Assembly: GCF_004421185.1 (NCBI RefSeq)
Contig: NZ_LXQB01000056.1
Coordinates: forward strand, 1-45,499
Length of the DNA stretch: 45,499 nucleotides
Direction of reading: 5' to 3'
Source of the DNA: Methylacidiphilum sp. Yel
GTDB taxonomy: Bacteria; Verrucomicrobiota; Verrucomicrobiia; Methylacidiphilales; Methylacidiphilaceae
Shown here: piece by piece, positions 6,485-10,979 of the stretch
Layout: every line of letters starts with the position of its first letter
Numbering within the stretch: the stretch's first letter is position 1
Notes under the pieces: generated by a model
Told to the model about the DNA's origin: nothing
Databases searched by the model: none
Seen by the model: only the letters and a program-made list of their open reading frames with translations
Made by a program: the position numbers and the translations under genes

Positions 6485-7573
6485 TTATGGACTATCAAGA
6501 CTTCCATAACTTAGGGGATAGGTGATTATTCCCCAAGGCATTTTTATTCCTTCAATCTTGGCTAGTTCTTTGTAATTGTCCGCATCGAAAACGTAGAGAG
6601 CATCGGATCGGCCACTAGCAACTAAGATTTTTTTTCCATCCGGGCTAAAAGTAAAATGCCAGCTTCGCATACCTACAGGAGCTTCCGCCAAAAGCTTCAG
6701 ATTTTGGGAATCGAACACTTGCAGTTTTCTATCCCGGAAAGCAAGTACCAAAAGCTTTTTGCCTGATGGATCGAAAACTACTCCATAAGGACCAGAAGCG
6801 GTGGTCGTAGCTTTAAGAAGAGAAAAATGATTGTCGAACAAAGCTAAGGTATTGCTGTTTTCAAAAGTCACCGCATAGATTTCCTCTTGAGGTGCCTTCT
6901 TTAAACCTCGAGGTCTTGTGCCAATTTTTTGAAGATCTATCCGGCGGATTTCCCGTCGCGTTTCAATATCATAAAGGCCGATAGAATTTTCTCCCTCATT
7001 TGCAACCAATAGCTTAGATCCATCTTGAGAAAACTCTATGGCTTCGGTTTCTTTTCCTCCGGAAAACTCATTGTCTATCCTTTCCTTTTGGATATCAATC
7101 TGAGCAATTTTTGCTCCTATAGGACTTGTTGACTCTGAAAGATCTGGCTCATAAGAAACAAAGAGGAATTTTCTTTCTGGATGCAATCGCAAAAATTCAG
7201 GATTTTGTCCAAGCCGTATCGTTTTTTTTATTCGCCCATTGTTCGCATCCAGAATTAGCAAGGATCGAGTCGATTTGTCAGCGACAAAAAGAGTTTTTCC
7301 TTCTTTGTCAATACCAATACCTCTGAGCATGCTACCAGGAAGTGCAATTGTTTTGAGTTTTTCGTTTTTCTCAATATCAATAATGGCTATGCCTCCTTCA
7401 CAACTAACATAGGCTAAAGGATGAACGCTAGCTCTTAGGGAGGAAAAACAAATCAACACAGAAAGGAAAGTAACCAAAAAGAAGACACACAAACGGATCA
7501 AAAGAGTGGGGAATGATAAAATTTTAAATTTCAGGAGAAAGAAATTAAAAAAACCGTTTTGTTGAATAATCAT
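6485..7573 (-). CDS. Secreted YVTN-type beta-propeller protein, PQQ-linked
   Basis: A 362-residue protein with a long hydrophobic N-terminal signal (about residues 17-50), then some seven blades of the YVTN/Lactonase type. Typical repeat phrases are GKTLFVADKSTRSLLILD, GSKLLVANEGENSIGLYD, GKKLLVLAFRDRKLQVFD and GKKILVASGRSDALYVFD. It resembles the periplasmic beta-propeller proteins found beside PQQ-dependent dehydrogenase and catabolism genes. It is transcribed divergently from pqqA across 159 AT-rich bases. Function is unknown; a periplasmic chaperone or accessory role in PQQ-enzyme metabolism is inferred from context only. No catalytic motif is evident. Confidence 0.7.
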   Translation of the reverse strand: MIIQQNGFFNFFLLKFKILSFPTLLIRLCVFFLVTFLSVLICFSSLRASVHPLAYVSCEGGIAIIDIEKNEKLKTIALPGSMLRGIGIDKEGKTLFVADKSTRSLLILDANNGRIKKTIRLGQNPEFLRLHPERKFLFVSYEPDLSESTSPIGAKIAQIDIQKERIDNEFSGGKETEAIEFSQDGSKLLVANEGENSIGLYDIETRREIRRIDLQKIGTRPRGLKKAPQEEIYAVTFENSNTLALFDNHFSLLKATTTASGPYGVVFDPSGKKLLVLAFRDRKLQVFDSQNLKLLAEAPVGMRSWHFTFSPDGKKILVASGRSDALYVFDADNYKELAKIEGIKMPWGIITYPLSYGSLDSP

Positions 7574-7732
7574 TGAAAAAGGTAAAAAATTTATTTAGAT
7601 TGTCGTGCTTCTGAGTTATATTAAAATAATCAATGTAGAAAAATTTAAAAAATTGAAATTGCATTTCAATAAAAAATTGCAATTGAATGAGAAAAAAATA
7701 ATTTATTAATTTTATTTAAAATAGGAGGACTC
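7574..7732. promoter_or_regulatory. Divergent promoter region, beta-propeller gene / pqqA
   Basis: A strongly AT-rich 159-bp gap between the leftward beta-propeller gene and rightward pqqA. Both promoters must sit here. A clear AGGAGG ribosome site at 7723-7728 lies four bases before the pqqA ATG. I cannot place promoter boxes reliably because of base composition. Confidence 0.4.
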
Positions 7733-7813
7733 ATGAATTGGGAAAAACCAGCATTCGAAGAAATGAATCTCTGCATGGAAGTGACTGCCTACGCGTTTGT
7801 TGCTGAGAATTAA
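7733..7813 (+). CDS. pqqA: PQQ precursor peptide PqqA
   Basis: A 26-residue peptide, MNWEKPAFEEMN... ending in EVTAYAFVAEN. PqqA is the ribosomally made substrate for pyrroloquinoline quinone. PqqE cross-links a conserved Glu and Tyr separated by three residues, and here these are Glu16 and Tyr20 in EVTAY. The start ATG has a strong AGGAGG site at 7723-7728, the best in the pqq cluster, fitting the need for stoichiometric peptide. It is separated from pqqB by a 14-bp hairpin. It is shorter than most gene finders accept, so it is easily missed. An overlapping minus-strand reading frame has no support. Confidence 0.93.
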   Translation: MNWEKPAFEEMNLCMEVTAYAFVAEN

Positions 7814-7836
7814 TCTTCGATGAGTTCAAAAGCTTC

Positions 7837-7874
7837 CACAAAGGGCAAAGGCAATCCTGTCTTTGCCCTTTGTG
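7837..7874 (+). promoter_or_regulatory. 14-bp hairpin between pqqA and pqqB
   Basis: CACAAAGGGCAAAG (7837-7850) is perfectly complementary to CTTTGCCCTTTGTG (7861-7874), with a ten-base loop. The stem ends seven bases before the pqqB ATG at 7882 and is not followed by a T-run. It is therefore not a classic intrinsic terminator. It could stabilise the pqqA mRNA 3' end, attenuate readthrough, or mask pqqB translation initiation. pqqA is known in other methylotrophs to be expressed above the downstream pqq genes. Confidence 0.75.
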
Positions 7875-7881
7875 CTCCAAT

Positions 7882-8778
7882 ATGGAAGTCATAGTTTTAG
7901 GTTCGGGAGCGGGAGGAGGTATTCCCCAATGGAATTGTCTTTGTCCAAATTGTGTTCGCGCCCGGATAGAAATCAAAGAAAAGAAAGAGGTTTTTTCCTT
8001 TAGAAGAACCCAATCCTCCATAGCTGTTCGGATGGAGGGGGAAAAGTGGATTCTTTTAAATGCATCGATCGATTTGCCTACTCAATTAGCACTTCATTCA
8101 GAACTGGCGCCTCCAGGCCTTGAAATTCGTTCTTCTCCATTTGCTGCTATTATTCTAACTGATGGACAGATTGATCATGCCTCTGGTCTTCTTTCTTTGC
8201 GTGAAGGCAAAGAAATTGAAATTGTTTGTTCTGACAGCACTTGGGAGCTAATTTCTGAGTACTATCCAATAGTTCGAATCTTGTCTTCCTATGTTCGATT
8301 GAAACGAAGTTCTTTTCCAATAAAAATAGGCTCGTTGCTTTTTGATGCTTTTGAGTTACCGGGAGGGCCACCACCGTATGCAAAAAGAGAGCCGCGACCA
8401 GGTGATGTGATTGCGGTAAGTATCGAAGAGGAATCTGGGTTAAAAGTCGTTTATTGCCCTGCTTTGCCATCAATAAGTAGCAGATTTGAAGAATTTATTC
8501 AGGAAGCTGAATGCCTGTTTGTCGATGGGACTTTTTGGTCAGAAAACGAACTTTTACTTTGGAACATTAAAGAGAAAAAAGCTTCAGAAATGGGGCATAT
8601 TCCGGTGGGCGGTGAAAACGGATCGCTAAGCTGGCTTAGCACTCTACAAATTCCTAAAAAAATCTACATTCATATCAACAATACCAATCCCATGCTTGAT
8701 CCTGATTCGGCACAGGCAAAAGCTGTGCATTCTTTAGGGATAGAAATTGCTTACGATGGCATGAAACTTTTGCTATGA
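7882..8778 (+). CDS. pqqB: PQQ biosynthesis protein PqqB (metallo-beta-lactamase fold)
   Basis: About 298 residues beginning MEVIVLGSGAGGGIPQWNC, the hallmark PqqB N-terminus, with CLCPNC completing the metal-binding cysteine set. TDGQIDHASGLL is the family's variant of the lactamase metal motif. FVDGTFW, MGHIPVGG and HINNTNPML are further conserved blocks. PqqB is thought to hydroxylate the tyrosine of the cross-linked PqqA product. An in-frame TTG at 7870 would add four residues, but that codon lies inside the hairpin stem; the ATG at 7882 matches family N-termini. No Shine-Dalgarno sequence lies before it. Confidence 0.95.
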   Translation: MEVIVLGSGAGGGIPQWNCLCPNCVRARIEIKEKKEVFSFRRTQSSIAVRMEGEKWILLNASIDLPTQLALHSELAPPGLEIRSSPFAAIILTDGQIDHASGLLSLREGKEIEIVCSDSTWELISEYYPIVRILSSYVRLKRSSFPIKIGSLLFDAFELPGGPPPYAKREPRPGDVIAVSIEEESGLKVVYCPALPSISSRFEEFIQEAECLFVDGTFWSENELLLWNIKEKKASEMGHIPVGGENGSLSWLSTLQIPKKIYIHINNTNPMLDPDSAQAKAVHSLGIEIAYDGMKLLL

Positions 8779-8788
8779 TTTTCTTCCA

Positions 8789-9574
8789 ATGACTGCCTTT
8801 GATGCTTTGCCTATTTATCCTTCCTTTATACCGAAAGAAGAATTTGTTTCAAAACTCCCTCTGCCTCCTGCCCAATTCGAAGAAGTGCTTAGATCGATAG
8901 GAAATACTAGCTACCATGATAAACACCCCTTTCACCTGCTGATGAACGAAGGCAAACTCTCCAAAGAGGCTTTGCAGGGATGGGTAGCCAATCGGTTCTA
9001 TTACCAGGAACAGATCCCCATCAAAGATGCCGCGATCCTGTCGAACTGTCCAGAGAGGGAATTGAGGCGCATCTGGATATCCAGGATCCATGATCATGAT
9101 GGGTTCGGAGAAGATCCTGGTGGCATTGAACGATGGCTTAATTTAGGAAAGGCTGTCGGGCTTAGTCGGGAAGATCTTTTATCTCATCGGTTTCTGCTTC
9201 CAACGGTTCGGTATGCTGTTGATGCTTATGTCCATTTTTGTAGGGAACAACATTGGTTAATCGCCATGGCTTCTTCTCTGACAGAGCTTTTTGCCCCTAC
9301 CATACATAGGATACGAATTTCAGCTTTTCCAAAATATTATCCGTGGATCGATCCTGAAGGATTAAAATATTTCGAAAAAAGAGTTGAACAAGCACCCAAA
9401 GATGTCCGATTTACCCTTGATCTCGTGCTGAAAAGATGCACTACCCCATCCCTACAGCTTGCTGCGATTGAAGCCTTACAATTCAAATGTGATCTACTTT
9501 GGTCGATGCTCGATGCGCTCTATATGCATTACCAGTTGGGGATTTGTACGCCCAAGCCTCCCTATGCACTCTGA
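8789..9574 (+). CDS. pqqC: Pyrroloquinoline-quinone synthase PqqC
   Basis: A 261-residue cofactorless oxidase of the heme-oxygenase-like fold that carries out the last ring closure and eight-electron oxidation giving PQQ. Family blocks seen are YHDKHPFHLLMNEGKLS, GWVANRFYYQEQIPIKDAAIL, ISRIHDHDG and the glycine-rich segment after it, plus FAPTIHRIRI. The conserved His and Arg residues around HDHDG and the Tyr in FYYQ line the active site. It starts ten bases after pqqB and overlaps pqqD by eleven bases, so pqqB-C-D-E is one tightly packed transcript. Confidence 0.95.
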   Translation: MTAFDALPIYPSFIPKEEFVSKLPLPPAQFEEVLRSIGNTSYHDKHPFHLLMNEGKLSKEALQGWVANRFYYQEQIPIKDAAILSNCPERELRRIWISRIHDHDGFGEDPGGIERWLNLGKAVGLSREDLLSHRFLLPTVRYAVDAYVHFCREQHWLIAMASSLTELFAPTIHRIRISAFPKYYPWIDPEGLKYFEKRVEQAPKDVRFTLDLVLKRCTTPSLQLAAIEALQFKCDLLWSMLDALYMHYQLGICTPKPPYAL

Positions 9575-9845: not shown

Positions 9846-10979
9846 ATGTCCAACCTAAAGTTGTTACCCTTATCCTTACTCTGTGAACTGACCTTTCACT
9901 GTCCTTTAGAGTGTCCTTATTGCAGTAATACCCTAGGATACTCGAAATGGTTGAAAGAGGAACTGTCTACCGAAGAGTGGATAAGAGTTCTTCAAGAGGC
10001 TCAAAGACTTGGAATTTTGCAAGTTTATTTTTCTGGGGGTGAGCCATTAGTGCGAAAAGACCTGCCTGTGTTGATTCGTACAGCTCATGATCTAGGGTTA
10101 TATTCGAATATGAGTACAGGGGGAACTTTGATTAACAGGAAACTTTTAAAAAAGATAAAAGAGGCCGGATTGGACAGCATTCAGCTAAGCATTCAGGATT
10201 GCAGGCCCGAAAGTGCTGATCTTTTTTCAGGAGTAAAAAAGAGCTTTGAAAAAAAAATAGAAGCCGTTCAACTCATTAATGAATTTTCTATTCCCTTAGG
10301 GATTAACGTTGTCATTCATCGACATAACATCGAAAGAATATCTGAAATTATAGATTTCGCTGCAGCCTTAGGAGCTCAGAGGCTAGAATTGGCTAATACC
10401 CAGTACTACGGTTGGGCTCTCCATAATAGAAAGGAGTTACTTCCTAGAAGGCATCAAGTGGAAAAGGCTGCTAAAGAAGCTTCAAACGCAAAAGAAAAGT
10501 ATAAGGGGAAGATGGAAATTCTTTTTGTAATCCCCGATTATTATAGTTCGTTTCCAAAACCTTGTCTTCAAGGATGGGCTAAAGTATACATGACTGTTTC
10601 AGCTGACGGAACGGTTTTACCCTGTCAAAGCGCCCGTGACATACGCTCCCTTTCTTTTCCAAACATCCGATCAGACACTTTAGAGAATATCTGGTGGAAT
10701 TCGGAAGCCTTCAACAAATTCCGAGGGACCGATTTTCTTCCAGAACCATGCAAGAGTTGTCCTCGCAAAGAAATCGATTTTGGCGGTTGCCGATGTCAAG
10801 CCTTCTTGTTCACAGCCGATGCTTCAGCAACTGATCCTGTCTGCATTTATTCTCCACACCATCATCTCATTGAAAAGATTGTAGAAGAGATAAACGCACC
10901 TAAAGAAAATAATAAATCTAAAGAGCCAACGTTTGTTTATCGAACCATCAAAAATTCAAAAGCTTTATGCTGCTCTTAA
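9846..10979 (+). CDS. pqqE: PqqA peptide cyclase PqqE (radical SAM/SPASM)
   Basis: A 377-residue radical SAM enzyme that forms the Glu-Tyr carbon-carbon cross-link in PqqA. The SAM [4Fe-4S] motif is CPLECPYC (near residues 19-26), followed by YFSGGEPL. The C-terminal SPASM domain has its cysteines in PCLQGWAK, LPCQSA, EPCKSC, GGCRCQAF and DPVC, all matching PqqE. The C-terminal 40 residues after DPVCIYSPHH are Lys/Glu-rich and specific to this protein. It closes the pqq operon; a terminator-like hairpin lies at 11104-11141. Confidence 0.96.
   Translation: MSNLKLLPLSLLCELTFHCPLECPYCSNTLGYSKWLKEELSTEEWIRVLQEAQRLGILQVYFSGGEPLVRKDLPVLIRTAHDLGLYSNMSTGGTLINRKLLKKIKEAGLDSIQLSIQDCRPESADLFSGVKKSFEKKIEAVQLINEFSIPLGINVVIHRHNIERISEIIDFAAALGAQRLELANTQYYGWALHNRKELLPRRHQVEKAAKEASNAKEKYKGKMEILFVIPDYYSSFPKPCLQGWAKVYMTVSADGTVLPCQSARDIRSLSFPNIRSDTLENIWWNSEAFNKFRGTDFLPEPCKSCPRKEIDFGGCRCQAFLFTADASATDPVCIYSPHHHLIEKIVEEINAPKENNKSKEPTFVYRTIKNSKALCCS

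Follow-up and report, generated by a model that had tools for sequence, protein, structure and literature searches.

A conserved hairpin between pqqA and pqqB in Methylacidiphilum, a putative barrier at the 3' end of the pqqA message

PQQ synthesis consumes one PqqA peptide per molecule, so the precursor is needed in larger amounts than the enzymes despite their common operon, and the question arises of how one operon can supply both. We address it here for a window of 45,499 nucleotides (the whole stretch of DNA analysed, contig NZ_LXQB01000056.1 of Methylacidiphilum sp. Yel), in which a profile search found pqqA, pqqB, pqqC and pqqE all scoring above their NCBIfam cut-offs. On the forward strand, the Shine-Dalgarno sequence AGGAGG (7,723 to 7,728, read directly) precedes pqqA (7,733 to 7,813; TIGR02107, 35.2 bits, cut-off 20), which encodes the 26-residue PQQ precursor MNWEKPAFEEMNLCMEVTAYAFVAEN, and after a spacer of 68 nt follow pqqB (7,882 to 8,778; TIGR02108, 320 bits, cut-off 245) and the downstream operon genes pqqC (8,789 to 9,574; TIGR02111, 334 bits) and pqqE (9,846 to 10,979; TIGR02109, 482 bits). 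The cluster is a pqqABCDE operon of the Methylacidiphilum type. Divergent from pqqA, at 6,485 to 7,573 of the reverse strand, lies the gene of a beta-propeller protein resembling the PQQ-dependent catabolism-associated family (TIGR03866, score below the cut-off), and the two genes may have a regulatory region in common. Elsewhere, pqqB of the Kam1-like genome G011 (locus L007) is broken by a 1-base deletion within a G run, possibly an error of long-read sequencing; the genome paper gives pqqB as present.

Within the pqqA-pqqB spacer lies a hairpin, on the same strand. The original prediction placed a perfect 14-bp hairpin at 7,837 to 7,874 with its end seven bases before the pqqB ATG, and these details are correct, except that the stem is longer than claimed, the 14 perfect pairs being followed by G-U, C-G and A-U to make 17 pairs in total. 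Sequence and fold place the 5' arm at 7,837 to 7,853, starting 23 nt past the pqqA stop, a four-nucleotide loop (ATCC) at 7,854 to 7,857 and the 3' arm TGTCTTTGCCCTTTGTG at 7,858 to 7,874, with 7,851/7,860 as the single G-U pair. The 7-nt linker CTCCAAT (7,875 to 7,881) contains neither a U tract nor a Shine-Dalgarno sequence and leads directly to the ATG of pqqB at 7,882.

The minimum free energy of 7,820 to 7,900 is -34.1 kcal/mol, as compared to -15.3 +/- 3.05 in dinucleotide shuffles (z -6.2; 0 of 200 shuffles as low). A survey of uninterrupted stems over 445 kb, namely the window and 400 kb of the SolV-like genome G009, returned five with at least 12 pairs and a score of 30, and the pqqA-pqqB stem and its orthologue were the top two. 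Moreover, among 283 start regions none is more structured than those of pqqB and its orthologue, and in 5/5 genomes of the window genus no 44-nt fold in the surrounding 3.8-3.9 kb equals the hairpin. A chance structure, or the functionless remnant of a mobile repeat, could be argued solely from the fact that the hairpin is a single short inverted repeat; this reading is already disfavoured by the z value and the top rank in the survey, as well as by conservation across two genera with two-sided changes (see below), and we regard it as very improbable. A second copy is lacking too, since a search of its own genome returned only the hairpin itself and its own inverse, which also rules out a dispersed or REP-type repeat. 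A known RNA family was ruled out as well, as Rfam gave no match above cut-off (the sole match was a chance one elsewhere, below its cut-off), and a 24-residue short open reading frame across the hairpin (7,820 to 7,894) was rejected on the grounds that its frame stops after two codons in G009 and in G011.

We found a hairpin in the pqqA-pqqB spacer of 13/13 genomes of the family. The stem of G009 is identical to that of the window, and between genera the stem sequence is wholly different while the pairing is retained. In an alignment of the sister genus 90.8% of cells are paired, and the covariation score is 0.381 as opposed to 0.245 when shuffled (0/500), with pairing dropping to 40-56% in slid registers. 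The compensatory changes that the original prediction proposed as a check in the spacers of relatives do occur, two-sided changes being found at 7 of the 17 sister-genus pairs. Within the window genus, the stem base of G010 and G008 is rebuilt as GCAAC..GTTGC or GCAGC..GTTGC, with a single base bulged out, where the window type has CACAAA..TTTGTG; the automatic alignment of the five window-genus spacers misplaces the stem base at this 1-base bulge, and its pair counts understate the pairing, individual folds being the better guide. These comparisons also bear on whether the element acts as DNA. A 14-bp perfect inverted repeat would suit a palindrome for a dimeric regulator; however, the sequence differs fully between genera and yet the pairing stays, and the retention of G-U pairs points to an RNA element. 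The position after the first gene, near its stop, and the single genomic copy likewise speak against an operator, which we consider highly unlikely.

Which gene the hairpin serves is suggested by its position. The gap between the pqqA stop and the hairpin is 14-23 nt in 12 of the 13 family genomes, whereas that between the hairpin and the pqqB start ranges from 5 to 50 nt among the 12 genomes of the two main genera. In the window genus (n=5) the hairpin begins 23 nt past the pqqA stop and leaves 5-7 nt to pqqB, and in the sister genus (n=7) it begins approximately 14-17 nt past the stop, leaving 42-50 nt to pqqB; in the one genome of a third genus it begins about 41-47 nt past the stop (the position in G005 was taken from its perfect stem). 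Between the two main genera the hairpin is thus usually anchored to the pqqA stop and not to the pqqB start, although within the window genus alone the distance to pqqB is nearly as constant as that to pqqA. Three mechanisms had been offered at the outset: mRNA stabilisation, attenuation and occlusion of pqqB initiation. The first two fit, because the distance to the pqqA stop is the one kept, while occlusion as a general mechanism does not, given the 42-50 nt of the sister genus.

For the window genus, occlusion would mean that a stem 7 nt before the ATG impedes 30S binding and lowers PqqB, and the untranslated pqqB mRNA would then decay or be cut by Rho, a sequel that would also feed the decay barrier proposed below. 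The short distance of 5-7 nt, seen in each of the five genomes, and the strongly structured start region agree with this, but the 3' arm contains no Shine-Dalgarno motif, as a sequestering hairpin would, and such motifs are rare in the genus, so that we view occlusion as unlikely and, at most, as a genus-specific extra effect. The original prediction had also set the AGGAGG of pqqA against the lack of a Shine-Dalgarno sequence at pqqB. Both observations hold, inside as well as outside the stem, yet the absence is not special: 4-5-mer Shine-Dalgarno-like words precede 43/233 long ATG open reading frames versus 34/233 in a control region, and the missing motif is a weak argument because most genes here have none and the stem contains none. 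That the hairpin moves a distant Shine-Dalgarno sequence close to the ATG was ruled out, no such motif being present upstream of the stem. In the window and in loci L139-L158 of G009, gene starts show hardly any enrichment of Shine-Dalgarno-like words and gene ends hardly any of U-tailed terminators, and hence translation starts and transcription ends in this genus may obey other rules.

Additional support comes through published RNA-seq of M. fumariolicum SolV, which has the same stem as the window, with values of 2920/1919/2133 for pqqA, 1308/588/620 for pqqB and 1165/560/622 for pqqC (PMC5623727). From these values pqqA is 2.2-3.4 times pqqB, a modest ratio in which the RPKM of the 81-nt pqqA gene is unreliable, and pqqB is about equal to pqqC, so there is no step at the next spacer. 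The transcript ratio proposed as a check is therefore unequal, and together with the conserved pairing and its two-sided changes it supports the original idea of a device for making much precursor and little enzyme; equal coverage combined with unconserved pairing, the contrary outcome, is not what we observe. We infer that the hairpin causes the SolV ratio by blocking decay, although partial termination or a promoter that has escaped notice could produce the ratio as well.

Partial termination would make the hairpin a leaky terminator, or attenuator, at which RNA polymerase halts in some passages to give a short pqqA RNA and less pqqBCDE RNA. In line with this the SolV expression step falls between pqqA and pqqB, and U tails follow the hairpin in the relatives G007, G004 and G005 (CCCTGTTTTTTCTC or CCCTGTTTCTTCTC) and in the more distant loci L049, L130, L056 and L108 described below. 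However, the stem in the window and in SolV is followed by CTCCAAT, which has no U tract and is not what an intrinsic terminator carries; G008 has a weak T run (TTCTTAT), and the window genus is without a clear U tail. U-tailed hairpins are moreover not enriched at gene ends in the genus (5/225 versus 3/225 controls). Owing to the missing U tract and this lack of enrichment, intrinsic termination is not our first choice, and attenuation as the main explanation seems possible but doubtful.

We instead favour, with a probability of roughly 0.55, the reading that the hairpin is a putative 3'-end barrier of the malE-malF kind that preserves a stable stretch of pqqA mRNA, perhaps together with partial termination. 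As in known 3'-protective hairpins, a very stable hairpin follows the 5' gene, whose message is the more abundant one by the SolV values, and the stem in the window is not followed by a U tract. In the mechanism we propose, pqqABCDE would be made as one transcript with the hairpin as the 3' border of its pqqA part. New 3' ends would arise by downstream endonucleolytic cuts or by Rho-dependent stops in or after pqqB, and exonucleases would trim them back toward the hairpin, where PNPase would stall at the 17-bp stem, such that a short stable pqqA mRNA builds up while the pqqBCDE portion decays. The genome contains genes for Rho, PNPase and RNase E/G, and a search for RNase R gave no match above the cut-off; with this set of enzymes a strong stem should halt 3' decay. 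In the U-tailed relatives the hairpin probably doubles as a leaky intrinsic terminator.

Each single mechanism already has well known precedents. The malE-malF element is a repetitive (REP) element, unlike the pqqA hairpin, which has no other copy in its genome. In other respects the pqqA hairpin appears similar to it: in E. coli, at malE-malF and in 26/34 5'-stabilised gene pairs, a stable U-tract-free hairpin ends the stable part at its 3' side, and the mRNA of the first gene exceeds that of the next (Dar and Sorek 2018, PMC5927463). In the E. coli gal operon, a hairpin at the galE 3' end keeps exonucleases from trimming further once Rho has stopped transcription or RNase E has cleaved the RNA, and it sets polarity, but its stem is 8 bp and the galE 3' end lies approximately 120 nt past the stop, inside the next gene (PMC11925234). 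In P. brassicacearum pqqABCDE, one operon, pqqA also exceeds pqqB (log2 TPM 12.77 versus 6.86), by about 60-fold as opposed to 2-3 in SolV, a likeness in expression (PMC6722718).

Hairpins after pqqA are also found in other bacteria, in a wider sample of loci picked by similarity and availability, not as a census, in which other stretches of some GC-rich loci fold equally well. Outside the family, none of the 288 genomes of the phylum sampled has a true PqqB above the cut-off; a later search found PqqB in two verrucomicrobial MAGs, one of which (L049) has a recognised pqqA followed by a hairpin with the U tail TTTTTTCC. Hairpins likewise follow pqqA in Methylococcus (L112), in Methylococcaceae and Methylothermaceae loci (L095, L098, L106 and L113), in Rahnella (L127), Phyllobacterium (L136) and Acinetobacter (L130, with a U tail, as in the gammaproteobacterial loci L056 and L108), and weakly in Klebsiella (L131), while several marine Gammaproteobacteria have a hairpin with a T run farther from pqqA. 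Loci with a short spacer, namely those of Sinorhizobium, Sulfitobacter, Ruegeria and Pseudoduganella, lack the hairpin. In many Methylococcaceae loci the pqqA pattern had no match within 1.2 kb, which has no bearing on the hairpin. Separately, contig L051, labelled Nitrososphaerales archaeon TH1177, encodes a PqqB that shares 46% identity with the window protein and is perhaps a bacterial contaminant within an archaeal assembly. We tentatively raise the possibility that pqqAB operons, from Verrucomicrobiota to Gammaproteobacteria, generally contain an old element close behind the pqqA stop, a hairpin which sets the ratio of precursor to enzyme, as a leaky terminator where it is U-tailed and as an exonuclease barrier, also set against the pqqB start, in Methylacidiphilum, where the tail is missing. 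In Methylobacterium extorquens AM1 a short pqqA (there pqqD) transcript reportedly exceeds the longer operon message (Ramamoorthi and Lidstrom, 1995), in an organism and a sequence other than those of Methylacidiphilum.

Taken together, relatives keep the hairpin in place despite changes of its letters, most likely so that more pqqA message than enzyme message survives from a common transcript. If the difference in U tails holds, one position would be served by two mechanisms within a single family. The lanthanide methanol dehydrogenase of methanotrophs depends on PQQ, and a conserved hairpin at the boundary of pqqA would be a simple way for these organisms to set the ratio of precursor to enzyme.
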